A DNA stretch of 64,000 bases from a virus. Position numbers and translations under genes: made by a program. How positions within the stretch are numbered: position 1 is the stretch's first letter; the number at the start of each line of letters is the position of its first letter. The DNA lies in IMG/VR virus record IMGVR_UViG_3300042562_000747, positions 19,318-83,317 of that record; one strand, 5' to 3'. The notes beneath the pieces are model-generated. The model made no database searches. It was not told the DNA's origin and saw only the letters and a program-made list of their open reading frames with translations. Below, piece by piece: positions 1,330 to 58,521 of the stretch.

Positions 1330-2039
1330 TATATTAGAGTTTGTTTTATATTTGTAATATCTGCCGTTTCTAATGAGTTTCCTGCTAATAATTTATTTAA
1401 TTTAATTTGAATTGTTTTATTCATAAATTCTTCAATATATGCAAAATTACCATTACCACTTTTATCCCACACTTTAAATCTATTTACTTTTGTAAAATCT
1501 AAATTAGTAACTATACCTTCATTGTTTGAAACTATAAATTCAGATATTATACCATTAAAATAATATCTTTCATTAGTATCTTTTAAAAATGGATTCATTA
1601 CACCAATCCATAGTGGTACATGTGCATAATCGCAAGTTTTATATTTACATTTAACCATTCGTTTTTCACCATTTACTGAAACCAAAAACATACTGATTCC
1701 TTCTACATTTTGAATTTGATAAATAACTTTATATTCTTTATCATATTCAAAATCAAATTCTTCAATATGCATATCATCCGAAAAATTACCACTTTCAGGA
1801 TTTGCAGTAAATAATACACATTTTAATTTATTATTATCAATATAAACCCCACTATTTACTATTCCAGGTTTTGCAAAAATATATTGTTTTTTTCCATTAT
1901 TTTGTGCAATAAATGTACAATTTATAATTACAGAATCGTTAAACACCGTTCCCAATAAATTAGGTCGTTTGGATGTATTGTGTTTAGATTCGTTCCATAC
2001 ACTGCAACAAAAAGTATCTTTAAATTCAAATAGTTCCAT
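1329..2039 (-). CDS. Stand-alone LamG/concanavalin A-like domain protein
   Basis: A 236-residue protein that looks like a free-standing LamG (Laminin_G_3-like) jelly roll. The segment KPGIVNSGVYI (about 57-67) parallels the PG-x-N-x-GIS strand of the LamG insertions in the three GT7 proteins upstream, and the pattern LWIGV...YYFNGIISEFIVSNNE (about 143-172) parallels their YIG...F-x-G-x-IA-x-F strands. No catalytic motif or signal peptide is visible. It is coupled by one-base overlaps to the radical SAM gene upstream and the epimerase downstream. Probably carbohydrate- or protein-binding; the ligand is unknown. Confidence 0.55.
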   Translation of the reverse strand: MELFEFKDTFCCSVWNESKHNTSKRPNLLGTVFNDSVIINCTFIAQNNGKKQYIFAKPGIVNSGVYIDNNKLKCVLFTANPESGNFSDDMHIEEFDFEYDKEYKVIYQIQNVEGISMFLVSVNGEKRMVKCKYKTCDYAHVPLWIGVMNPFLKDTNERYYFNGIISEFIVSNNEGIVTNLDFTKVNRFKVWDKSGNGNFAYIEEFMNKTIQIKLNKLLAGNSLETADITNIKQTLI

Positions 2040-3430
2040 TATTTCATTTCTTTACATTTGTTATAAAAATCAGCCAATTCAGGGAATGTTTTTTCAAAAT
2101 TAGTTCCCCTTCTTTTATCATGCTCACTAAAAAATTTATAAAAATCTTTTCTATGTGCCATTCTATCTTCATCATCGATTGATATAAAATAATCATAAAT
2201 TCGTCTAATCTTAACGATTTCAACATCACTAAACCCATAACAATTTACATCATCCCTTAATAATTCATAAAATTCAACTAATTGTGCTTGTTTAAATATT
2301 TCGTCCGACCATTCTTTATCTAATATTCTAATAGATTGATGGTTTGGATATCTTAAATATGAACTATCTAATAATAATGGTTGTTTATAATATCTTAATG
2401 CGTTTGTGTGTTTTGCTTTTAGTGAATATACATCATCAATTAATTTACGATACGATGGTACTGATAATGCGTTGTATGTACTCATTATATCTACTGTCAG
2501 TCTTGGGATATACTGGCATAAATCATCTATTCTATCCATCAATTGATTATATACTAAACCATTTCTAACGTACTCAGCCTGTGTACCATATCCATCACAA
2601 CTTGTGTAAATAATTAATTCTTTAACTAATCCTCGATCGGATATAATTTTAAATTTTTCTCTGAATTTTTTATATAACGAATCGGGTACACCTAAATTTG
2701 AATTGATACTTAAACATAAATTCTTATTTGGATTTGGAGAATCAATGATATAATCTAATACTTTCATAGTATCTTTATGCATCATAGGTTCACCACCTGT
2801 GATTCTAAATGTATATAAATCTTGATACAACTCCGGCCACCATTTCCAAAATGCTTCTACATATGGATTAAATTCACTTTGTGGGATTGGTATTCTACCA
2901 CTACTTACAAAATGTTCTAATCCATTAAAATTATCAGATGTTGGGTATCCACCATGTTGTTCAATTTCTTCCATCCATTTTGTTGAGAATGGTGGTGCAC
3001 AATATGAACATTTAAAATTACAAGCATTACTGAATGAAACTTCTACATACGAAGGATTTATATTATCTCTCCAATTACTTTGTTTAATCTTTTCTAAATG
3101 TGGAAATGCCCATGGTTCAGACGATTTAAATGTTCTATCACTAAATTGATTTGAACTATCCTCTACACCCCAACAATAATCACATTCTGCCGGCTTCCCA
3201 CCTTCTAACATTTCTCTTCTTTTTTGTTTTTTGAAGCGTGTATTATGAAGTGCGGAAGGGTCTCTATTTAATTCAGTTGTTGATACCTGATGTGTCATCG
3301 GATGGTGACAACTATGATTATGTCCAATATGTAAATGCATTGTTACTTGCATCCATTTTGCTAAACAGAATCCTACTCCTACCGCATTTAATTGTTCTCT
3401 TACACTTTCAAATTTTTCGTAACTAGCCAT
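2039..3430 (-). CDS. Radical SAM enzyme with N-terminal Cys/His segment
   Basis: A 463-residue protein. The radical SAM [4Fe-4S] loop C137-x3-C141-x2-C144 is in SNACNFKCSYC, and the SAM-binding GGEP is at 212-215. Before the barrel lies a segment with CHHP (41-44) and C83-x2-C86-W, shared with the truncated paralogue at 1-359; it could hold an extra metal or cluster. Such SPASM/twitch-like proteins are often seen in marine phages without a known substrate. The gene overlaps the first GT7-LamG gene and the LamG gene by one base each, tying it to glycan or surface modification. Peptide or sugar radical chemistry are both possible. Confidence 0.8.
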   Translation of the reverse strand: MASYEKFESVREQLNAVGVGFCLAKWMQVTMHLHIGHNHSCHHPMTHQVSTTELNRDPSALHNTRFKKQKRREMLEGGKPAECDYCWGVEDSSNQFSDRTFKSSEPWAFPHLEKIKQSNWRDNINPSYVEVSFSNACNFKCSYCAPPFSTKWMEEIEQHGGYPTSDNFNGLEHFVSSGRIPIPQSEFNPYVEAFWKWWPELYQDLYTFRITGGEPMMHKDTMKVLDYIIDSPNPNKNLCLSINSNLGVPDSLYKKFREKFKIISDRGLVKELIIYTSCDGYGTQAEYVRNGLVYNQLMDRIDDLCQYIPRLTVDIMSTYNALSVPSYRKLIDDVYSLKAKHTNALRYYKQPLLLDSSYLRYPNHQSIRILDKEWSDEIFKQAQLVEFYELLRDDVNCYGFSDVEIVKIRRIYDYFISIDDEDRMAHRKDFYKFFSEHDKRRGTNFEKTFPELADFYNKCKEMK

Positions 3431-16527: not shown

Positions 16528-17169
16528 TTATTTATTATTATATATAAATGAAGTTAAAATAGCAAATCGTTTAAAGTTATCATCTAACACTTCGGTTACT
16601 TCGTGTTTTGGATTTGCGGTTGTAAAATCTAATACTGCCAATGCACCAAACTCTGGTTTTACTACAACATTACCATTTATAACTAATTCACCACCATACC
16701 CATCCTTATAATCTTCATTTAAATAAAGTAAAATATTACATATTTTATTTTTACTAATACCATCTTGATGTTGATTTATATAACATTGTTTATTATACAT
16801 AGTATAAGATAAATGACAATTTTCTAAATCGTATAAATCAGCAGGATAACATTCTTGTATTAAACTTCTAAAAACTTCATCTTTAATAAATTCTACTTCA
16901 TCTCTATCTAAAAATTTATATAAATTATGATTAGAATACCAGAATTGCCATTTCTTTAATGGTGCATATTCTTTTTTTAATTCCTCTAATACTTCAAAAT
17001 CGGTATCATGTGTGTAACCCGTTTCACCACAAGACGTATGTGTTGCATCTCTAAATTCTATATCTTTTATTTTACTAAAAATTTGTTTTAGTTTTTCAGT
17101 TATAGTAGGATTTATTGTTGTTGTATAATATCCTTTACTTGTTAATTGATTGTGTATTTTTTCATTCAT
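16528..17169 (-). CDS. 2OG-Fe(II) oxygenase, prolyl 4-hydroxylase-like
   Basis: A 213-residue protein with the double-stranded beta-helix iron site H134-x-D136 (INQHQDG), distal H189 (NPKHEV) and the 2-oxoglutarate-binding R201 (FKRFAIL). The stretch YGGELVINGNVVVKPEFGALAVLD is typical of P4H-like proteins. It should hydroxylate a protein side chain or small molecule using Fe(II), O2 and 2-oxoglutarate. It lies between the recombination fusion and the tail fibre, so a virion protein is one candidate substrate. At least three other 2OG oxygenases are present in the window. Confidence 0.85.
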   Translation of the reverse strand: MNEKIHNQLTSKGYYTTTINPTITEKLKQIFSKIKDIEFRDATHTSCGETGYTHDTDFEVLEELKKEYAPLKKWQFWYSNHNLYKFLDRDEVEFIKDEVFRSLIQECYPADLYDLENCHLSYTMYNKQCYINQHQDGISKNKICNILLYLNEDYKDGYGGELVINGNVVVKPEFGALAVLDFTTANPKHEVTEVLDDNFKRFAILTSFIYNNK

Positions 17170-35823: not shown

Positions 35824-36246
35824 TTATATTACTATGTTTAATTGTTCTAATGTTGTTGAATTTGAATATTTCAAACTATATTTCAATTCTAAATCTATTC
35901 TATTCATATCTTTTAATGAATCAGATATATCATATACAATACTTTCAATATTAACATATGGCATCCATCTATTAATTGCTTCAGTAATTCTTGTTTCTAA
36001 TATAGTATCTAAATCAGATGTAATTGGTTCAAATAAAACTTTTCTTAAATCAGCCCCAAAATCAGGCTCCATTAATCTTTCACCTTTGTTAGTTAGTATT
36101 AAAGATTTAATATTAGTTTTAATTTGTTCTTTAGTTGTATAAGACACATTAAAATAACCATTATCACCTTTGGTGAGTGGTAATGTAATACCTACACTTT
36201 TATCTTGTTCATCAATTACAAATTTCTTTTCTAATACTATTGCCAC
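35824..36246 (-). CDS. Baseplate wedge protein, gp25-like
   Basis: A 140-residue GPW/gp25 family protein: IKTNIKSLILTNKGERLMEP then FGADLRKVLFEP is the family core (about 41-75). It joins gp6-type proteins in the wedge and helps start sheath assembly. The start codon is GTG at 36246-36244; an in-frame TAA lies immediately upstream so no ATG alternative exists, and AAGGGG sits about 8 nt before it, one of few Shine-Dalgarno-like sites in the window. Confidence 0.9.
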   Translation of the reverse strand: MAIVLEKKFVIDEQDKSVGITLPLTKGDNGYFNVSYTTKEQIKTNIKSLILTNKGERLMEPDFGADLRKVLFEPITSDLDTILETRITEAINRWMPYVNIESIVYDISDSLKDMNRIDLELKYSLKYSNSTTLEQLNIVI

Positions 36247-36258
36247 TTAGGTTACCCC

Positions 36259-36714
36259 TTATTTGAATTTTTTTACTAATTGTGAATAATCTCTTGTCAT
36301 TGCTTTCATAACCGCATTAGCCGCTTCTGGATTCCTTCTTGCTGCCATTGCCATCTTATGTTCTAATGGAATTCCACCTTCTTCTTGTCCTTGCATATAA
36401 GAACTATACTCCGATTGAATTCCACCAACAGGTGCTTCGGGTTGTGCGTATTCTTTAAAATTATCTCCATATCCTAAATCAGCCGGTGATATCATAGGTC
36501 TTGCGGCCTGTGGTCTTTGCCCGTATTGGATTGTGCCGTAGCTACCATCATCTTTTGATTTAAATTCGTAACTTTCGTTCACTTGTTTCTTTGGTGTTTC
36601 AATTTGTTCGTTTAACACTTCGTGAACAGCATTTCGTATTTCTTCTTTAAGAGTTTTTTTAATATCCTCTCTTAAAACTTTTACTATTGCTTTGATTAAT
36701 TGTGTTTGGTCCAT
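36259..36714 (-). CDS. Hypothetical protein between hub and wedge genes (151 aa)
   Basis: Not recognised. The N-terminal 35 residues form a charged helix (KAIVKVLREDIKKTLKEE), the middle is Gln/Pro/Gly-rich and probably unstructured, and the last 35 residues (MAMAARRNPEAANAVMKAM) form another helix. Location among baseplate genes suggests a linker, chaperone or small virion protein. Confidence 0.6.
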   Translation of the reverse strand: MDQTQLIKAIVKVLREDIKKTLKEEIRNAVHEVLNEQIETPKKQVNESYEFKSKDDGSYGTIQYGQRPQAARPMISPADLGYGDNFKEYAQPEAPVGGIQSEYSSYMQGQEEGGIPLEHKMAMAARRNPEAANAVMKAMTRDYSQLVKKFK

Positions 36715-39862: not shown

Positions 39863-41557
39863 TTACTTACTAATCAAATAATTACCTAATACTAAGTAAT
39901 CCATTTCACAACTATAAAATGTTTTAATAGCAGTTACTGGGTCTAATACCATAGTTTGACCTCTAAGATTGAATGAGGTATTGAGTAAGATAGGATAACC
40001 ACTTAACTTTTCAAATTTCTTAAGTAGTGTAAAAATATGTGGATTGAAAGTAGAACGAACTGTTTGAACTCTCGCGGTTTCATCAGCATGAGTAATTGAT
40101 GGTAAACCTGCAATAAATTTATCCTTAACTTTAAATACTTGATTCATATAAGGAACTTCTTGTCCTAACATCTCAAAGTATTTATTTGCATCATCGGATG
40201 TAACCATTGGTGCGAAAGGTCTAAATCCTTCTCTTTTTTTAATTACTCTATTTACCTTTGGTTTAATATCTTTGATTGTTGGATTTGCTAATATAGAACG
40301 ATGTCCTAATGCTCTTTGTCCAAATTCACTACCATCTTGAAACCATCCTATAATTGCACCATCATTAATTAAACCAGCCACTTTTTCTATTAATGGATTA
40401 TAGTTTTCAAATCTTTTTACTTTATCATGTGGAACTAAATCTGCGATTGCAGATATAAAATCCGCTGCTCCATACGAAGGTCCTAAAAATGGATTTGAAT
40501 TATCCACTCTTTTATAATTTGATGTTTTGTAATAAACGTATAAAGCACATCCAATAGCAGAACCTGCATCAGATGGGGCTGGTGGTACATATACATTCTT
40601 ATAAGGAGTTTCTATTGTTATCTTACCATTTGCTAATCCATTATATGCACACCCACCACTTAAACATAAATTGTCTTGTGGGTAATGTTTATAAAAGTTA
40701 TTTAACATTTGGAAAAATAATCTTTCGTAATGTGCTTGTAATGAAAATGCAATATCCATATAAACAGGTTCTAACTCACTTTCGGGAACTCTCGGTGCTA
40801 CATTAAATAGTTCTGCTAGTTTAGAAGTAAACATACCTTTCTCTGAATAATGATATGAGAAATATTTCATATCTAATTCTAATGTATTACCATTTAATTT
40901 AGCAATCTTTTCAAATTGTTCTCTATATAAATCTTTTTGATTACCATATGCCACTAATCCCATTACTTTGTATTCACCACTATTTGGTTTAAATCCTAAG
41001 AATGCGGTAATACTTGCATATAATAATCCTAATGAATGTGGGAAATAAGTTCTCTCTAATGGTTGTATATATCTACTTTTTAACCCTAATCCTAATATTG
41101 CTGTTTCGTTTTCGCCAACACCATCTACGGAGAATAGATGTGCATTTTCAAATGGTGATGTATAGAATGAATATGCTAAATGTGATATGTGATGTTCTAC
41201 ATATTCTATTGAACCTTTATATCCTAATTGTGTACGAATAATATTTTCAATGTTATTATTCTTTCTCCAAAATATAAGTTTCTTAGTTAATCCAATTGTT
41301 TTAGGGAAATACCTAAACCATTGTTCTTTAAATCTTTCGTATTTTTTCTTAGGGTCTTCGTACCAAACAATTTTATCTATTTGGTTAATCTTTAATTTGT
41401 TTTGTTTTAGAATCCAATTAATTGAATTGATAGGAAATCTTTGGTCGTGCTTTATACCTGTAAATCTTTCTTCTTCTTGTGCCGATACAACTTTGCCATC
41501 TACAATCAATGCAGCTGCTGAGTCGTGGTAAAATGCTGATATTCCTAATATTCTCAT
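39863..41557 (-). CDS. Carbamoyltransferase, NodU/TobZ family
   Basis: A 564-residue protein of usual family length. N-terminal Kae1-like domain: MRILGISAFYHDSA, E121-H122-H123-x2-H126 (metal/substrate region) and VDGVGE; later LSGGCAYNG and PAPSDAGSAIG; C-terminal YrdC-like part with EFGQRALGHRSILANP and FRPFAP. It moves a carbamoyl group from carbamoyl phosphate via carbamoyl-AMP to a hydroxyl. The chosen ATG (41557) overlaps the sigma-gene stop as ATGA; an upstream TTG is possible. Substrate could be a sugar in the glycan pathway or, as reported for some viral members, 5-hydroxymethylcytosine in DNA; no hydroxymethylase gene is visible here. Confidence 0.88.
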   Translation of the reverse strand: MRILGISAFYHDSAAALIVDGKVVSAQEEERFTGIKHDQRFPINSINWILKQNKLKINQIDKIVWYEDPKKKYERFKEQWFRYFPKTIGLTKKLIFWRKNNNIENIIRTQLGYKGSIEYVEHHISHLAYSFYTSPFENAHLFSVDGVGENETAILGLGLKSRYIQPLERTYFPHSLGLLYASITAFLGFKPNSGEYKVMGLVAYGNQKDLYREQFEKIAKLNGNTLELDMKYFSYHYSEKGMFTSKLAELFNVAPRVPESELEPVYMDIAFSLQAHYERLFFQMLNNFYKHYPQDNLCLSGGCAYNGLANGKITIETPYKNVYVPPAPSDAGSAIGCALYVYYKTSNYKRVDNSNPFLGPSYGAADFISAIADLVPHDKVKRFENYNPLIEKVAGLINDGAIIGWFQDGSEFGQRALGHRSILANPTIKDIKPKVNRVIKKREGFRPFAPMVTSDDANKYFEMLGQEVPYMNQVFKVKDKFIAGLPSITHADETARVQTVRSTFNPHIFTLLKKFEKLSGYPILLNTSFNLRGQTMVLDPVTAIKTFYSCEMDYLVLGNYLISK

Positions 41558-42282
41558 CTTGTAATTGTTCGTTTCCAAAACGGGTCTTTTGATTCTTGTG
41601 TTATATCACCTTCATCTAAGAATTGATAGTATAACTTCATTTGGGTTTCTTTCATCTTTGAAACAACCTTAGTTATATAGTGTGTTTTATAACCAGTCAT
41701 TTCTCTCACCAATAAGTATAGTGATTTTTTATTAAATGATTCTATAAATTCTGCTCGTCTAAATAATTCTAATACAGCATCTGCAATCTGAATATCTCTT
41801 TTTTTAGAAAATTCTTTATTAAGATTTAAATCCCAATATTGTAACATTCTATCATTAAAAGTTTTAAATTCTTCGTTGTGTGATGTTTGTTTAAAATCGT
41901 TTTCTAAATCCCAACTAACCGGCATTGCACTTAATTGTGATGTTGCTTTGAAACGTTTGTAGTTAGAATTGTTATTTAAGATAAGATAGTTACGAGCTGC
42001 AATTGTAAAGTAACTAAATGCTTTACCTTTACCTTCTTCAAATTTATGTATCTTCTCTAATAAGAAAGAAACTACTTCATGTTTGATATCTTCTTTATCA
42101 TCATCAAAGTAAGTAAATCCCCAAGTGTTTAATACGTTTTCCGATAACTTATAAAATGAATAATGGATGTGTTCGGTATATAATTTATTTCGTTCTCTAT
42201 TATCATCCGATTTGTTATATGCGATAATAGCTGCTTCTGTCATTTCTGTAAAGTATCTAGTATCTTTTTTCTTTCTACCCAT
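41554..42282 (-). CDS. Late-transcription sigma factor, gp55-like
   Basis: A 242-residue protein with a sigma region 2-like segment at about 60-112: DDKEDIKHEVVSFLLEKIHK then GKAFSYFTIAARNYLI and NYKRFK, the pattern of T4-like gp55 proteins. No recognisable region 4. In T4, gp55 directs host RNA polymerase to late promoters through a short -10 box with help from the sliding clamp. It overlaps the small membrane protein gene by 8 nt and the carbamoyltransferase by 4 nt. A matching candidate box (ATATTTATA) recurs upstream of virion genes. Confidence 0.75.
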   Translation of the reverse strand: MGRKKKDTRYFTEMTEAAIIAYNKSDDNRERNKLYTEHIHYSFYKLSENVLNTWGFTYFDDDKEDIKHEVVSFLLEKIHKFEEGKGKAFSYFTIAARNYLILNNNSNYKRFKATSQLSAMPVSWDLENDFKQTSHNEEFKTFNDRMLQYWDLNLNKEFSKKRDIQIADAVLELFRRAEFIESFNKKSLYLLVREMTGYKTHYITKVVSKMKETQMKLYYQFLDEGDITQESKDPFWKRTITR

Positions 42283-48865: not shown

Positions 48866-49723
48866 TTATAATAATTTGTTATTTTTATATAAATATTTGT
48901 TATTTAAAAATGTAACTATACCCTCCGCCCATAGTTGGTGGGCTTGAAATCCAGGGTGTCCATCATTTATTATATCAACCCCAATTTCATCAAATATTCT
49001 TGTTTTAGTTTTTTCACTTAATGTAACAATATTATTTTCAAATTGACCATTAATTTCTAATTTTAAAATTCTATTATTAAGAAAATTTGGAATAAATTTA
49101 TTAAAATCAATTTGGTTAATAAAATAAGTGTAATTACCCGATATGTAATATTCTATATTGTGTAATTTAAAAAATGAACATAATCCTAAATATTTTTTAG
49201 CAGTTTCTAACTCCCATTGAATTGGATTTATAAAACTATTAGAATATTGTTTAATTATAGAATCTATATTATCTTTATACACTATATTTGTCATAAACCC
49301 ATCTGTAATCCAATTGAACGTAGTTGCTACACTATCTACTTTACCATTATTATCATAATTAACATTTGCTACCAAATATTTATTATACTTGTTTGAAAAT
49401 ATATCTAATCTATTTATCGCGTCAGGTAATTCTAATATGAATAGGGTTTTTTTAACTTCATCTAGTGTATTTTTTAGAATGTAATCATATACTTTTCTAA
49501 TAATTCTATCCGTACCACTACCACTCTTTGCATCGTTTATTATTTTAATCCCCATTTGTTTTCCAACCAACGTAGGATAACATACATCTACTTGAGATTC
49601 ATACTCAAACCCATATTGTTTTTTATATGCTTCTCTAACGTGTTCTTTCTTTGCTTCAAATCCACCACCTTCGGTAAACGAGCAACCATTAAAATATATT
49701 TGATTAAATTTATTTTGTATCAT
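48866..49723 (-). CDS. SGNH/GDSL-type hydrolase
   Basis: A 285-residue protein. Block I is GCSFTEG (14-20), with Ser in the GDS position; block II-like NDAKSGSGTDR (about 62-72); and the C-terminal DGHPGFQAHQLWA gives the catalytic Asp/His. Expected to hydrolyse an ester, for example sugar O-acetyl. The ATG is directly preceded by the U run of a terminator hairpin, and a promoter-like element ends at the foot of the same hairpin, so initiation is unusual here. It is one of two SGNH proteins in the window. Confidence 0.75.
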   Translation of the reverse strand: MIQNKFNQIYFNGCSFTEGGGFEAKKEHVREAYKKQYGFEYESQVDVCYPTLVGKQMGIKIINDAKSGSGTDRIIRKVYDYILKNTLDEVKKTLFILELPDAINRLDIFSNKYNKYLVANVNYDNNGKVDSVATTFNWITDGFMTNIVYKDNIDSIIKQYSNSFINPIQWELETAKKYLGLCSFFKLHNIEYYISGNYTYFINQIDFNKFIPNFLNNRILKLEINGQFENNIVTLSEKTKTRIFDEIGVDIINDGHPGFQAHQLWAEGIVTFLNNKYLYKNNKLL

Positions 49724-49752: not shown

Positions 49753-49784
49753 CAAATATACGAAATATAACTCAGTTATCCAAC
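49753..49784 (-). promoter_or_regulatory. Bacteroidota-type promoter overlapping the terminator foot
   Basis: Minus-strand TATATTTG at 49760-49753 fits the -7 element exactly; GTTG at 49784-49781 with a 20-nt spacer is a 3-of-4 match to the -33 TTTG. Transcription would start inside the terminator stem, giving a message that opens with a hairpin. Confidence 0.5.
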
Positions 49785-50156
49785 TTTAATGGATACTTTT
49801 TTTGGTTTCTTTTCTTCTATCTTAGGTAAAGAGATATGTAATATACCATCTTTTACCGTTGCTAATGTAGCACTAAGGTCCCAATTAGTTCCAATGTTTA
49901 ATGATTCATCAACCGGAAGTGCAATCGCATTCCAAATTTTATCATCGGTTTCTTTTTCTATTGATTTAACTTTAATAAAGCTTTCCTCAATTGTAATTTC
50001 TAATGTTTCCTTTGTTTGACCAGGAACTGCTAATCCAATTCGTAAGATATCTTCGGTTATATCAACTACTACTTGTTTGTGGGTTGATGTAGCTGTTTTT
50101 GTTTTTGGTGTTTCGAAAAAATCTTCAAATAATTTGTTGTAATCTACTAAATACAT
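49776..50156 (-). CDS. Small heat-shock protein, Hsp20/alpha-crystallin
   Basis: A 126-residue Hsp20. The alpha-crystallin domain spans about 27-112: VDITEDILRIGLAVPG, EITIEESFIKV and the closing ATVKDGILHISLPK. A short N-terminal arm and basic tail flank it. It holds unfolding proteins; phage Hsp20 genes are common in T4-like cyanophages and may help virion assembly. It is followed by a strong terminator, and a small inverted repeat lies 33 nt upstream of the ATG. Confidence 0.9.
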   Translation of the reverse strand: MYLVDYNKLFEDFFETPKTKTATSTHKQVVVDITEDILRIGLAVPGQTKETLEITIEESFIKVKSIEKETDDKIWNAIALPVDESLNIGTNWDLSATLATVKDGILHISLPKIEEKKPKKVSIKVG

Positions 50157-51935: not shown

Positions 51936-52367
51936 TTATAATTGTTCAAATCCTAATTTTGTGAATACGTTTATTGACCGTATGTTCCAATCATCTATAT
52001 TGGTTAATATGTTCGTATTGGTATAATTTTGTATAACATAAAATAACATATCCGTTGCTCCATACATTCTACTATAATTTGTAGTTTTTATAAATACATT
52101 GTAAATATAATAAGTTGTAGAATCTATACATTTTAACCAACAATATCCAACAATTTCACCTTTATAATAAGATACAAACATTTTATCACCCCGTTCAATC
52201 CTATCTTCTGCAGCTTGGAGATTAAACATACCATCCCAATTTATTTCAGAGTTGAATAAATCAATACAATATTGAATAATAGTATCATCTGATATTTCTA
52301 CTATCTTAAAATCCGAATGAATATTACGTTGTATTAAATCTTCATATTTTAATTTATATTCTATCAT
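51936..52367 (-). CDS. GNAT-family N-acetyltransferase
   Basis: A 143-residue GNAT fold: MFVSYYKGEIVGYCWLK (beta-2 to beta-3), YYIYNVFI (beta-4), a degenerate acetyl-CoA loop RMYGATDMLFYVI, and the C-terminal NIRSINVFTKLGFEQL typical of the family. I start at the ATG at 52367, which has GGAG 6 nt upstream; an upstream TTG adds two residues. The usual R/QxxGxG/A loop is present only as R-x2-G-A. Substrate unknown; it may acetylate an amino-sugar or protein. Confidence 0.75.
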   Translation of the reverse strand: MIEYKLKYEDLIQRNIHSDFKIVEISDDTIIQYCIDLFNSEINWDGMFNLQAAEDRIERGDKMFVSYYKGEIVGYCWLKCIDSTTYYIYNVFIKTTNYSRMYGATDMLFYVIQNYTNTNILTNIDDWNIRSINVFTKLGFEQL

Positions 52368-52415
52368 ACTCAACTCCTAAATAATTAAAATTTTTCGGAT
52401 TTAATTTAAAATCAA

Positions 52416-52925
52416 TCATATTAATCGTTTATCTATATGTGTGTGTCGTAATCTTTCTGGTGAATTTACATCAAATATATCTTCATAATATGTTATATCA
52501 ATTTTTAATATTTTACTAAGTTCTAATAACTTAGTATAATAGTTATTCACCATTTCTTGTACTTCCGTATAGTTTGGTGTTGGTTCCCAAATATATTGCA
52601 TCCCGCCATTTAAATGAGTACGTTCTCTGTTATATCTTAAGTATGCAATACTTTCTGCACAAGATTTCAAATCCCTCCTACCTAGTAGCACTACTTTGTC
52701 AAACCTGCCGGCTAAGTCAACCCACCATTTCATTTCATCGGTTATCCCGGTAGGTATATGCCACATTATAATCTTAACTATGGTATTATCATCCTTGTCA
52801 TTTGGTAAATAATCACTACCATTTTTAGTTGGTTCGGATACCCATTTTAAATTATGTTCGGCTGCTAATTTTAGCAGTAAAGAACTAGTACCGGTTCTAG
52901 CCATTGCAATTATTACTATTTTCAT
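52416..52925 (-). CDS. Sulfotransferase-like P-loop protein (1)
   Basis: A 169-residue protein. MARTGTSSLLLKL (8-20) fits the 5'-phosphosulfate-binding loop of PAPS-dependent sulfotransferases, and VVLLGRRDLKSCAES (78-92) fits the 3'-phosphate-binding strand with R83 or R84 and S92. It is shorter than typical sulfotransferases (over 220 aa) so acceptor-side elements are minimal. One-base overlap with the oxygenase upstream. Sulfation of a hydroxyl made by that oxygenase is a reasonable guess. Confidence 0.62.
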   Translation of the reverse strand: MKIVIIAMARTGTSSLLLKLAAEHNLKWVSEPTKNGSDYLPNDKDDNTIVKIIMWHIPTGITDEMKWWVDLAGRFDKVVLLGRRDLKSCAESIAYLRYNRERTHLNGGMQYIWEPTPNYTEVQEMVNNYYTKLLELSKILKIDITYYEDIFDVNSPERLRHTHIDKRLI

Positions 52926-53428
52926 TATATTAAAGATTTTTTAAATGTCAAATTCTCAACACATAAAAATAAAATTAAAGACCACCGCTCACCTGTTTTT
53001 ATTTCCATAACTTCATGTTCGGTGTGACTGTTGAAACAATAAATTTCGCCTCTTTTTTTTGATAATAATTTATGTGGCTCATATAAATAAAAATCGCCCC
53101 CGGTGTATTCTTCATTTAGATTAGTGCCAACCGCCCATATTCTGTTTTTATTTGTATCAGAATGTCTTGTAAATTTGTCGCCAATATTAAATTTATGCAA
53201 ACCTATGTGTGTGGGATAATTATTAACAATAACATTTTTATTATCCATAATCAATTTACCAATCATTCTATCAAATATCCATTTATAATTTTGAATATTT
53301 GGTATTTGCCATCCGGTGTAGTTAACCGCACTATTATTAGGATACCCACCATCGGTTTTTATTACCGTCAATACTTTACTTAAATTTATGATATCTAAAC
53401 ATTCTTTTGGTGTAAAATAATTTTCCAT
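52925..53428 (-). CDS. 2OG-Fe(II) oxygenase (first of the alternating pair)
   Basis: A 167-residue oxygenase with H89-x-D91 (FTRHSDTNK), H138 (HTEHEV) and R148 (GERWSL), plus YTGGDFYLYEP before the iron site's second half, as in P4H-like enzymes. It begins 4 nt after the stop of the second sulfotransferase-like gene and its own stop overlaps the first one. No fused domain. Substrate unknown. Confidence 0.83.
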   Translation of the reverse strand: MENYFTPKECLDIINLSKVLTVIKTDGGYPNNSAVNYTGWQIPNIQNYKWIFDRMIGKLIMDNKNVIVNNYPTHIGLHKFNIGDKFTRHSDTNKNRIWAVGTNLNEEYTGGDFYLYEPHKLLSKKRGEIYCFNSHTEHEVMEIKTGERWSLILFLCVENLTFKKSLI

Positions 53429-53432
53429 ATGA

Positions 53433-54032
53433 TTATATTAATGAATTTGTTTTTTTTGTAATAATATCACCCATTCTATATTTGTTTGTAGTATCTAATA
53501 ACTCTTTGTAATATAACTCATTATATTCTATTTCTAATTCATTAAATAGTGGATTAAAATTTCCATAATATAAATCTTCGTAATAAAAAATTGGTAAATT
53601 ATTTAGTGTTGCAAAATTAAAAAGTGTTTCATTTAAAAAACTATATCTATCGTATGTTGTTTGGAATTCGGCATCCGTAATATTGTAAAGGTTATAGATA
53701 CGTGGTGTATTATTTAAAAATGATGCCTCTTTGTGTACAAGAATTGAACTTTCAACTTGTTCTTTTTGATTTTTTCTTAAAAGGATTACTATCTTATCAA
53801 AATCATTTACCAATGTATCTAATGAGACCGGTAACGTTCTATATGCTGATTTTACGAATATATTTCGTTTAGTAATTAAATCGGAATATTCATTTTTATT
53901 TTTATGTACGTTTTCAACCATCCATTCAAACCAAGGCTCATTGAAGCATTCATATTCAGTTTTAATTTTTTCGAAATATTTTAGTATTGAGGTCGAACCA
54001 CATCTAGGAGTATATAGAAGTAAAATTTTCAT
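53433..54032 (-). CDS. Sulfotransferase-like P-loop protein (2)
   Basis: A 199-residue protein: YTPRCGSTSILKYF (7-20) is a good 5'-phosphosulfate loop (PRSGST type), NEPW (31-34) follows as in many bacterial sulfotransferases, and IVILLRKNQKEQVESSI (81-97) supplies R86 and S95/S96 for the 3'-phosphate. Later YYEDLY is the usual FYEDL-like strand. Paralogous in layout to the protein at 52416. PAPS would have to come from the host; no PAPS-synthesis gene is in the window. Confidence 0.72.
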   Translation of the reverse strand: MKILLLYTPRCGSTSILKYFEKIKTEYECFNEPWFEWMVENVHKNKNEYSDLITKRNIFVKSAYRTLPVSLDTLVNDFDKIVILLRKNQKEQVESSILVHKEASFLNNTPRIYNLYNITDAEFQTTYDRYSFLNETLFNFATLNNLPIFYYEDLYYGNFNPLFNELEIEYNELYYKELLDTTNKYRMGDIITKKTNSLI

Positions 54033-54554
54033 TTATAGTTTAACTTTAATTCCATTAATCCACACAATTCTATATGTAGAACAATTTAAAACATTTGTCT
54101 CATGTTCATGTATTGATGCGAAAAAATAAAGACAATCACCCTCATTTATTTTATAAACTACATTATTAATAATCAAATCACCACCAGCATCTCCGGTTGA
54201 AGTTTTTATTATAAAATGTAAACTCTCGGTATCATCGTATTTTGGGTCTTTGTGTTTTATTAACTTAGAACCATTGAAAGATATTGCACATATTATACCA
54301 TCTTTACCTTGTGGTACATTTTCATTTTCTGAAAAATTAAGTTTTTCTTTTATTTTTTTAAACGCATTTACAATTAAATCCGGATAATCATATTTAACAT
54401 CATTTGTAAATCTGGTAGTTTTTCTATTATTTGCCGCTCTACCTATTTGAAAAATGTTAGTATTATGGTTATCTAATGCCCATTTATTTAAAATATTACA
54501 TTCATCATGTGTTAATACAGATGGGATGATTTCAATTGAATTTGTATCAATCAT
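54033..54554 (-). CDS. 2OG-Fe(II) oxygenase (second of the alternating pair)
   Basis: A 173-residue oxygenase with H101-x-D103 (IKHKDPKYDD), a distal histidine H149 or H151 (SIHEHETN) and R162 (TYRIVW). GGDLIINNVVY and NEGDCLYFFAS mark the beta-helix core. It follows the zinc-ribbon gene after 2 nt and touches the second sulfotransferase-like gene. Only motif-level similarity to the oxygenase at 52925, so the two are either old duplicates or independent recruits. Confidence 0.8.
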   Translation of the reverse strand: MIDTNSIEIIPSVLTHDECNILNKWALDNHNTNIFQIGRAANNRKTTRFTNDVKYDYPDLIVNAFKKIKEKLNFSENENVPQGKDGIICAISFNGSKLIKHKDPKYDDTESLHFIIKTSTGDAGGDLIINNVVYKINEGDCLYFFASIHEHETNVLNCSTYRIVWINGIKVKL

Positions 54555-54556
54555 AT

Positions 54557-54838
54557 TTAAAATAAAGTTTTTTCCACTTTTTGTTTTGGAAAATATAGAG
54601 TATCAACACTTTCCCATTTTTTCAATGGACAATCATTAAAATCTGCTGAAAATATTTTTTTAGTTATTGGGCAACCACATTCGTTGCATATAACACCAAT
54701 ATCTAATTTAGTAGTGAGTACCTTTCTAGACGGACATACTTCACATATTTCATTTCTTTTTTCTGCTAGTAGTTTTTGATTTTCAGAAGGTTTATACGCT
54801 GTAACCCATGCATTGAAAATTTTTTTAAAATTCAACAT
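54557..54838 (-). CDS. Zinc-ribbon protein (93 aa)
   Basis: A 93-residue protein with two cysteine clusters: C32-x2-C35 (ICEVCPSR) and C51-x2-C54-x-C56 (CNECGCPI), then a further C at FNDCPLKKW. This looks like a rubredoxin/zinc-ribbon type metal site, and I recall similar short proteins from aquatic phages. A soluble N-terminal helix has no known partner. Located between the Hint/ATP-grasp gene and the oxygenase/sulfotransferase run. May be an accessory or DNA/RNA-binding protein. Confidence 0.7.
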   Translation of the reverse strand: MLNFKKIFNAWVTAYKPSENQKLLAEKRNEICEVCPSRKVLTTKLDIGVICNECGCPITKKIFSADFNDCPLKKWESVDTLYFPKQKVEKTLF

Positions 54839-54953: not shown

Positions 54954-56504
54954 TTAAGATTTTGGAGCTACCGGTGGTACACAGTTAGCAAAATTAACAC
55001 ACTTACATGGAGCGGAATTGGCGTAGCAGGGGAAGGTGCTGAACGTTTGTTTAGTACAGGCCTCACCCTTTGCGCAGTCGGATTGTGAACAAGAAGCTTT
55101 CCTCTCGGAACAACTCGCACCAATATTATGTTCAATTGCAACAAATGAGGTATTGTCCATAGTTTGTGTTAAAAATAAATGTTGTCTTTCTACACTTATT
55201 GCCCATCCACTAAATATGGTATTTGTTCTTACAATTGTCGAAACTTCTTTTAGGACAGTTGTTAATGTTTCATTTTCAGTATTAATTAATATTACAGAAT
55301 CACCAATTTGTATAGATTCATCTGACCCCAAACTTCCCAATGAAACAAATTTAACATTATTATTTCTAACGATTAAATAATTAGAAGAAATTGTATCTTC
55401 CCAATAAGTAGTATCAGTAAATACAAGCTTAACATATTCTACAATTACAGAAACCTTTTCTTTTGCAGTTACCTCATTTGTACTGTATACTGTATTATTT
55501 ACAAAATCTTCATATGTTATACCAAAATCAGCTGTATCCAATGTTAAATCAATATTATTTGGATTTGGAATATCAATTGTTTTTAATAAATCACCTACTT
55601 GTAAATCCAACGCAGTTTTGAATGAACCATCTGCCATTTCAACCGTATCGGTATCTAATAATTTAGGTGCTGCGAACAAATATTCATTATTTAAATATCT
55701 ATTTTTATATGTATTTACTATCTCAAATGTTTCTGCATTATATTCTACATCAGTATCTAATACTGCTCCGGTCAACGATGTGTAACCACCTAATGATATA
55801 CTTTCTAAATTTGGAGGAAATAATAAATTTAATCCTCTAAAAACTTGTATTTGATTTTGATATAAATTGTTCAAATCTAAATGAAATTCCATCAAAAAAT
55901 ACTCGTTGTTAACATTTTGTAAAACAATATTTAATTCCTCATTAGTTGATACTTTAAACAACTTAGGGTAAATATTCTTATCATATGCCGCACCAACTGC
56001 TTTTAAAATAAAATTTGGATGAATACCATTATCTGGTATTGTAGTTATGTTGTTTACAATTTCATTTGTTTCGTTAAGATATGCAAATTGAGAACCAAAT
56101 GATGAATTTTTAATTAAATTCATAAAATTAATTTTATTTGCACAATACGTATCATCTACCAATGCGGTAGTATCATATGCACTTCTAATAATCAACGTTG
56201 TATCGTTATCTTCAACATAAGGTACTGTTATAGAATTTGGACTAGAAATCATATTTTTAAATTCAAATCCTAAAATGGTAGATAATTCAGTTAATTTGTT
56301 AGATAGTGGCTCTAAATTTCCGATGTATACTACCTTAGTAAATGTATTATTACTAATGAAATTAGATAGTTCTGTTAAATCTAAGGAGGTTTCAGTACCT
56401 TCTAATGTAACATATATCCAGCCTAAATTAGTGTTTATTTCAATTGGTTTTAAATCACCATTTTTATCGTACATAAAGTCCGAACCTATTAATACTGTTC
56501 TCAT
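54954..56504 (-). CDS. ATP-grasp-like plus Hint-domain protein with Cys-rich tail
   Basis: A 516-residue composite. Residues 1-250 resemble ATP-grasp: GDLKPIEINTNLGW (16-29) looks like the metal-binding EINTNPG strand and NFILKAVGAAYD (164-175) the ATP-binding Lys strand, though the fold is degenerate. Residues about 281-462 resemble a Hint (hedgehog/intein) domain: DTDTVEMADGSFK then LQVGDLL (284-306) at the start, HLFLTQ and IEHN (442-460) at the end. The position of the usual splice-initiating Cys is Lys281. The last 50 residues hold eight cysteines (465-508). Whether it is a virion or modifying protein is unknown. Confidence 0.5.
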   Translation of the reverse strand: MRTVLIGSDFMYDKNGDLKPIEINTNLGWIYVTLEGTETSLDLTELSNFISNNTFTKVVYIGNLEPLSNKLTELSTILGFEFKNMISSPNSITVPYVEDNDTTLIIRSAYDTTALVDDTYCANKINFMNLIKNSSFGSQFAYLNETNEIVNNITTIPDNGIHPNFILKAVGAAYDKNIYPKLFKVSTNEELNIVLQNVNNEYFLMEFHLDLNNLYQNQIQVFRGLNLLFPPNLESISLGGYTSLTGAVLDTDVEYNAETFEIVNTYKNRYLNNEYLFAAPKLLDTDTVEMADGSFKTALDLQVGDLLKTIDIPNPNNIDLTLDTADFGITYEDFVNNTVYSTNEVTAKEKVSVIVEYVKLVFTDTTYWEDTISSNYLIVRNNNVKFVSLGSLGSDESIQIGDSVILINTENETLTTVLKEVSTIVRTNTIFSGWAISVERQHLFLTQTMDNTSFVAIEHNIGASCSERKASCSQSDCAKGEACTKQTFSTFPCYANSAPCKCVNFANCVPPVAPKS

Positions 56505-58143: not shown

Positions 58144-58521
58144 CTATACTAATTTTTTCTCTCTACTTTTCCAATACATCGGTCCATAATGATGCGCAAT
58201 CTCCTCACCTTCTTCTATATCTTTAATTGAATAAAATTCCATTATATTTAATTCTTTCGATTTTATCCTCCAATCACAATTTGGGTGTGAACTATGATTA
58301 TAAATTGAACCGTACCCAAAAGGTAAGTATGAAGTATCATTATCGTTAACGTCGGTGAATACATAATCATACGATGGGTGGGTTGCTACCACAAATAATT
58401 TTATAAAATAGCATGTTTCTATAATTGTTCCGTTTGGTATAAATTCGCCGGCAAACACACCAAATCCCATTACTTCATCAATATAACGTACCTCTAATTT
58501 TGTTTGTGGTTTTATAACCAT
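58144..58521 (-). CDS. SET-domain protein (putative lysine methyltransferase)
   Basis: A 125-residue, near-minimal SET domain. Key elements in order: GFGVFAGEFIPNGTIIE (19-35), LPFGYGSIYNHSSHPNC (66-82; the NHS-x2-PN pseudoknot region), DIEEGEEIAHHYG (101-113; GEE and catalytic-Tyr strand) and YW. It transfers methyl from SAM to protein lysines in eukaryotes and some bacteria. Viral SET proteins are known in chloroviruses; a phage target is unknown. Overlaps the 92-aa gene by 10 nt. Confidence 0.75.
   Translation of the reverse strand: MVIKPQTKLEVRYIDEVMGFGVFAGEFIPNGTIIETCYFIKLFVVATHPSYDYVFTDVNDNDTSYLPFGYGSIYNHSSHPNCDWRIKSKELNIMEFYSIKDIEEGEEIAHHYGPMYWKSREKKLV

Follow-up and report, generated by a model that had tools for sequence, protein, structure and literature searches.

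Four adjacent genes on the minus strand of a phage genome encode, in alternation, two 2OG oxygenases and two small sulfotransferase-like P-loop proteins. They lie in a window of 64,000 bases, the whole stretch of DNA analysed here, which is part of an 83,317-base virus record; the surrounding genome is that of a T4-like phage, with family matches to baseplate wedge subunits, an SbcCD-like nuclease and a primase. Transcription runs from the oxygenase-like gene at 54033-54554 through 53433-54032 and 52925-53428 to 52416-52925, with intergenic distances of 0 and 4 nt and then an overlap of 1 nt, and after 42 nt more reaches a GNAT gene at 51936-52373. An earlier note on this DNA had described just this alternation followed by a GNAT enzyme, and the description holds, with gaps of -1 to 4 nt. 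Open reading frames were called mechanically, and all records used are metagenomic and possibly fragments. The features of the locus, in window positions, are listed below; "tag" denotes a short C-terminal motif and "island" the recurring gene group to which the run belongs, both treated further on, and names such as L006 or G003 are handles of individual records.

48866-49723, minus strand: SGNH-like protein ending NNKLL, a probable outlying tagged gene; candidate family, recognized by a GCSxTxG motif only
51936-52373, minus strand: GNAT-family protein with TTG start, untagged (PF00583, 22.1 bits against a cut-off of 20.7); also downstream of some other islands
52416-52925, minus strand: sulfotransferase-like protein A, 169 aa, tag KRLI at 52419-52430; identified by motifs and AlphaFold model
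52925-53428, minus strand: 2OG-Fe(II) oxygenase, 167 aa, tag KSLI at 52928-52939; PF13640 at 39.2 bits (cut-off 27) and HxD...H
53433-54032, minus strand: sulfotransferase-like protein B, 199 aa, tag NSLI at 53436-53447; homologous to A in the alignment
54033-54554, minus strand: 2OG oxygenase-like protein, 173 aa, ending KVKL, outside the tag consensus; identified by BLAST cluster and HxD...H
54557-54838, minus strand: small Zn-ribbon-like protein, 93 aa, a conserved island member, tag KTLF at 54560-54571
54954-56504, minus strand: ATP-grasp plus intein-like (Hint) protein, 516 aa; intein profile match and structural model
54957-55124, minus strand: Cys-rich tail of that protein after an invariant His-Asn, 56 aa with 8 Cys, proposed to be a released peptide
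58144-58521, minus strand: SET-like protein (label given by eye) with the near-tag KKLV, related to island proteins in L006 and L012

Several relatives of island genes lie elsewhere in this genome. Two further oxygenases of the same family (G000:10805-11461 and 35845-36486, window -8512 to -7856 and 16528-17169) and two radical SAM proteins of the island family (window 2039-3430 and -1191 to 359) are outside the island and untagged. Also untagged is a Nol-like carbamoyltransferase at 39863-41578 (phrog_1601, 1.7e-121), to which genes near the islands in L006 and L040 are related. A small heat-shock-like protein at 49776-50156 (HSP20 label given by eye) belongs to a type that is conserved 3' of several islands and never tagged.

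Identity of the four enzymes

In Stf0-type sulfotransferases the R-x-G-[ST] loop has no Walker A lysine, and the sequence also contains an Arg...Ser pair and YE[DE]. Profile and sequence searches said little about the two P-loop proteins of the window: neither has a convincing Pfam match of its own, PDB sequence searches with both single proteins and with an alignment profile returned no sulfotransferase, and Sulfotransfer_3 was matched by only 3 of 22 family members (best E-value 2.5e-4). The alignment of these 22 sequences, the window pair and 20 relatives, is more informative. R10, G12, K51, R83 and S92 are invariant and S13 is nearly so; the loop for the 5' phosphosulfate is of the R-x-G-[ST] type and lacks the Walker A lysine, R83 and S92 form the Arg...Ser pair, nine residues apart, of a 3'-phosphate-binding motif, and the YE[DE] motif is present. 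The Walker A motif GxxxxGK[ST], the hallmark of kinases and GTPases, was found nowhere in the family alignment. In the AlphaFold model of 52416-52925 (pLDDT 89), Stf0 (1tex) has the top TM-score, 0.55-0.57, among the 50 Foldseek hits listed, while by E-value two P-loop kinase-like entries outrank it. The fold alone would not decide the matter; the motifs do, and they support a sulfotransferase-like identity with PAPS binding and sulfate transfer as the predicted role. The earlier note's suggestion that these proteins are sulfotransferase-like, which their being kinases or GTPases would have refuted, is borne out by the loop, the missing GK[ST], the Sulfotransfer_3 relatives and the Stf0 fold. 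Relatives occur in IMG/VR at 27 loci for protein A and 10 for protein B; a tblastn search of 50,697 phage records found none for A.

For the oxygenases, the HxD...H iron-binding residues are invariant in an alignment that includes both window proteins, supporting the assignment of both neighbours of the sulfotransferases to the 2OG oxygenases. The profile check suggested earlier succeeded in part, with PF13640 for 52925-53428 and Sulfotransfer_3 in the few relatives mentioned; 54033-54554 has no match above cut-off and is grouped with the 2OG family by BLAST clustering.

A C-terminal tag shared by unrelated enzymes

Mutually unrelated proteins in these islands, namely oxygenases, two sulfotransferase families, SGNH-like proteins, radical SAM proteins, a halogenase-like flavoenzyme and the Zn-ribbon protein, end in a common motif. 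Its consensus is close to [KN]-[TSK]-L-[IL], with K or N commonest at position -4, T, S or K at -3, L at -2 and I or L at -1. Counted with the pattern [TSKNRYHQEP][LI][ILF] at the C-terminus, it occurs in 300 of 809 ORFs, where a rate of 1.9% for the pattern inside proteins would give 15.4; the ORFs are non-redundant at 70% identity, and this filter is the only reduction of relatedness among loci. The tag is found on most modifying enzymes: 62 of 71 2OG oxygenases, 33 of 41 and 34 of 35 members of the two sulfotransferase families and 24 of 30 Zn-ribbon proteins. Cofactor-supply and structural proteins do not have it, and the untagged families include the ATP-grasp/Hint protein (0/34), APS kinase (0/10), the nucleotidyltransferase (0/6), the carbamoyltransferase (0/7) and the small heat-shock protein (0/6). 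The tag is statistically firm as such, and we regard both the enzyme identities and the tag as well supported.

Two other origins were considered and rejected. An AT-rich bias does not account for the tag, given the low internal rate, the presence of untagged genes alongside in these genomes and its absence from all 54 ORFs in a 49-kb stretch of the related Flavobacterium phage immuto. A DNA signal such as a ribosome site, promoter or recombination site is contradicted by essentially background synonymous usage at positions -2 to -4; the one exception is an excess of ATA at the last position, which probably stems from the overlap of stop and start codons (ATGA and ATAATG junctions). Because synonymous codon usage is near background, the tag is selected as protein. 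In the AlphaFold model of 52416-52925 the tag residues are disordered.

Tagged genes cluster. Among genes at positions +1 to +5 relative to the one for ATP-grasp/Hint, 66-77% carry the tag, and from a distance of 12 genes outward the share is about 10%. Strict confinement of the tag to the island became less tenable, since 8 of 24 SGNH-like and 2 of 9 radical SAM proteins outside it are tagged; outside the island the same families carry the tag less often, yet not never. Tagged SGNH-like and glycosyltransferase-like genes are also found far from the island at G003:60163-64025 and G010:122467-150061, perhaps as a second island using the same tag.

Hydrophobic C-termini with T or S at -2 are typical of PDZ class I ligands and of some protease signals. 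The tag resembles these, and it could accordingly be a turnover or localization signal for a host protease or PDZ-like factor, with no relation to any peptide. Its limitation to certain enzyme families and its concentration near the ATP-grasp/Hint gene speak against this, as does the lack of any match to PDZ_2 (PF13180) or PDZ_6 (PF17820) in 12 phage contigs, possibly fragments. We consider such a signal improbable.

A modular island with PAPS supply and a Cys-rich tail

A search with the ATP-grasp/Hint protein found 195 viral loci, of which 80 were read. A core recurs, written as the string "an#zs" for APS kinase, nucleotidyltransferase, ATP-grasp/Hint protein, Zn-ribbon protein and sulfotransferase, together with a changing accessory set of oxygenases, further sulfotransferases, radical SAM, SGNH-like, halogenase-like and glycosyltransferase-like genes. 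As the ATP-grasp/Hint protein served as second bait, its constancy is best judged from the contigs baited with the sulfotransferase, where the gene is present in 12 of 18 records; five of the other six either are short records or break off near the sulfotransferase gene. The clear exception is G013, itself perhaps a fragment, whose 73 kb include tagged genes and lack the one for ATP-grasp/Hint.

Gene order and copy number differ from phage to phage, and oxygenases and sulfotransferases are not paired in a fixed way. The order oxygenase-sulfotransferase-oxygenase-sulfotransferase (O-S-O-S) was seen only in this phage and in contigs identical in that region, and other contigs have S-O-S, S-O-O-S, O-S and similar orders. 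The order seen here is one permutation of a modular island, and the phages that carry it are uncultured and T4-like, with hosts perhaps among the Bacteroidota. The earlier note had proposed checking whether gene order is conserved in other contigs; what recurs is the neighbourhood and not the order: an oxygenase-type gene adjoins 46 of 76 non-redundant sulfotransferase genes, with oxygenase-type genes making up 17% of ORFs (some oxygenase-type clusters, like the SGNH-like labels, are assigned by resemblance only). This more than expected adjacency, and the adjacency in this phage, would suit two hydroxylate-then-sulfate pairs in which each oxygenase makes the hydroxyl used by the next sulfotransferase, as the earlier note had proposed. 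However, order, pairing and numbers are not conserved, and islands of the types "zsSN" and "#zs." have sulfotransferases without an adjacent oxygenase. Two discrete units of this kind are not upheld, and we attach little credence to the idea.

APS kinase makes PAPS. A gene for it scores above the Pfam cut-off in 9 of 14 contigs searched, and PAPS use by the island sulfotransferases is therefore supported, as is sulfation itself; the window's own record, a fragment, has no APS kinase match. An attempt to identify the small, HIGH-type core nucleotidyltransferase beside the APS kinase as an ATP sulfurylase did not succeed; it resembles NMN and pantetheine-phosphate adenylyltransferases. A DUF2061 membrane protein lies beside APS kinase or nucleotidyltransferase genes at L006:3440-3652 (57.2 bits) and L009:1092-1301.

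The flavoenzyme and the radical SAM protein, which matches a Twitch-domain family, are among the island enzymes with a resemblance to modifiers of proteins or peptides. In L036 (299-1510) the flavoenzyme belongs to the Trp_halogenase family (2.3e-88), with the tag KTLI and a weak match also to a LodB maturase model. In the 50,697 phage records, tblastn found no relative of the radical SAM protein, of two other island proteins or of the ATP-grasp/Hint protein; a tail-sheath control of this search worked, with phage immuto as the isolate with the closest sheath. A profile search of 84,980 bacterial and archaeal GTDB genomes was likewise without relatives of the ATP-grasp/Hint protein, so that in the databases searched here it is found only in phages.

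The enzymes could also modify virion parts or glycans, such as tail fibres, the capsid or a surface sugar, with the tag directing them to the assembling virion and the ATP-grasp/Hint protein as one more member and not the substrate. Sugars are frequent substrates of sulfotransferases; in several loci (L009, L017 and L027) the island adjoins genes for the tail sheath and for long fibre-like proteins, and the same genomes hold glycosyltransferase-like, epimerase and carbamoyltransferase genes, some of them tagged. On the other hand, the most constant neighbours of tagged genes are those for the ATP-grasp/Hint and Zn-ribbon proteins, and the tag rate drops with distance from the former. Virion or glycan modification is a serious rival to a peptide substrate, even if on balance we hold it unlikely.

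The ATP-grasp/Hint protein itself suggests what that peptide may be. Its family profile matches an intein (2jmz, E 0.0011), and its model matches a BIL2 domain (6y75, E 7e-9, TMt 0.74). In 12 aligned sequences His-Asn is invariant and is followed by a short tail, usually with 6-8 Cys; the tail in L016 has only six residues, YCPNQK, and one Cys. The catalytic Cys or Ser at position 1 is absent from the first Hint, as read by eye from the alignment, and because Cys 1 is missing, C-terminal cleavage without splicing would be expected. Two double-Hint variants, L143:10001-11944 and L144:10001-11923, have the Cys-rich peptide between a first Hint that ends in HN and a second, canonical Hint that starts with Cys (Intein_splicing, 46.7 and 44.3 bits against a cut-off of 35.8); this Hint-peptide-Hint order could in principle allow a cyclic product. 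The tail evolves faster than the core, with mean identities of 0.60 and 0.85 in pairs with a core identity of 0.80-0.90. Correlation between enzyme repertoire and tail composition is weak or none: oxygenases go with tail Pro at rho 0.49 (p 0.009, n=27, uncorrected for phylogeny, tail length and multiple tests), halogenase with tail Trp at p 0.06, and sulfotransferases with tail Tyr not significantly. The anatomy of the protein and the double-Hint variants suggest that the Cys-rich peptide may be the substrate of the enzymes, to which we would give somewhat less than an even chance.

The N-terminal part of the model has weak fold matches to glutathione synthase (1m0t) and LysX, and ATP-grasp enzymes such as RimK, tubulin-tyrosine ligase and LysX activate substrate carboxylates. 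The exactly C-terminal tag might then be a conjugation site, its carboxylate being activated by the ATP-grasp part and joined to an amine, for example the N-terminus of the released peptide. Against this stand the several family members that lack a tag, and we know of no precedent for ATP-grasp conjugation through such enzyme tags; we regard it as quite improbable.

Proposed mechanism and known systems

Together, our data suggest a model in which the enzymes would use the tag to dock together onto a single partner; the simplest candidates for this partner are the ATP-grasp/Hint protein and the Zn-ribbon protein. Once docked, the enzymes would add hydroxyl, sulfate and other groups to the Cys-rich tail, and asparagine cyclization by the Hint module would then free the modified peptide, whose site of action might be the virion or the exterior of the cell. 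In the window protein this asparagine would be N460, and the freed 56-aa peptide would begin with IGASC. The accessory set of this phage would be its two oxygenases and two sulfotransferases. Membership of the run in a phage-encoded modular island for post-translational modification, with docking through the tag and with tag-recruited enzymes that modify a self-released Cys-rich peptide, is, taken jointly, our best explanation, at a rough probability of 0.4. A tag-addressed line in which mix-and-match enzymes are recruited to a self-cleaving carrier, yielding fast-diversifying sulfated and hydroxylated Cys-rich peptides, is put forward tentatively, and about one such proposal in three might be expected to hold.

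Each element has known relatives. Like Stf0 and Sulfotransfer_3 proteins, the island sulfotransferases have the P-loop fold, the R-x-G-[ST] loop without Lys, Arg and Ser nine apart and YE[DE] near the end; they differ in length (160-200 aa, against about 240 for Stf0 chains), in the short C-terminal tag and in their location in phage gene islands. The tag is comparable to PTS1 and PDZ ligands as a short, exactly C-terminal motif on unrelated enzymes, but here there is no organelle, and the 12 contigs yielded no phage PDZ domain. With BIL and pretoxin-HINT proteins, including ciliate BUBL loci, the carrier shares a Hint fold with a terminal His-Asn, followed by a short variable C-terminal module, and in L143 and L144 the two Hint modules flanking a peptide; it differs by its ATP-grasp N-terminal half, its Cys-rich peptide, the surrounding modification enzymes and a first Hint without Cys 1. 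RiPP clusters similarly have a short peptide at the end of a longer protein, with radical SAM, halogenase-like, sulfotransferase and ATP-grasp functions nearby. The island peptide, in contrast, is fused behind an ATP-grasp and Hint module and not to a leader, the enzymes have a common C-terminal tag, and the island is found in phage contigs only. Its anatomy would fit a RiPP-type precursor that is released after modification.

The earlier note knew of no described phage system of this kind. This stands for the open-access journal literature, where searches on phage sulfotransferases with APS kinase, ATP-grasp with Hint, halogenase peptide clusters and shared C-terminal motifs found no such system, and the tag appears undescribed there. 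It needs qualification for sulfotransferases as such, which in one paper are already annotated as auxiliary genes of OM43 phages and cyanophages, with their function stated to be unclear (PMC10580990). Those are also Sulfotransfer_3 proteins, in genomes that may likewise have PF13640 oxygenases, but the passages on them mention neither a tag nor an ATP-grasp/Hint protein, nor an island with APS kinase (PMC10580990).

The island appears to be a so far undescribed line on which viruses assemble modified peptides, and even without the peptide step the tag is directly testable. If the model is true, phage sulfotransferases and many phage 2OG oxygenases would gain a function. Viruses would have a modular code for enzyme recruitment, with a dozen unrelated enzyme families sharing one short C-terminal address, and phages would carry a family of Cys-rich peptides that evolve fast and are heavily modified.
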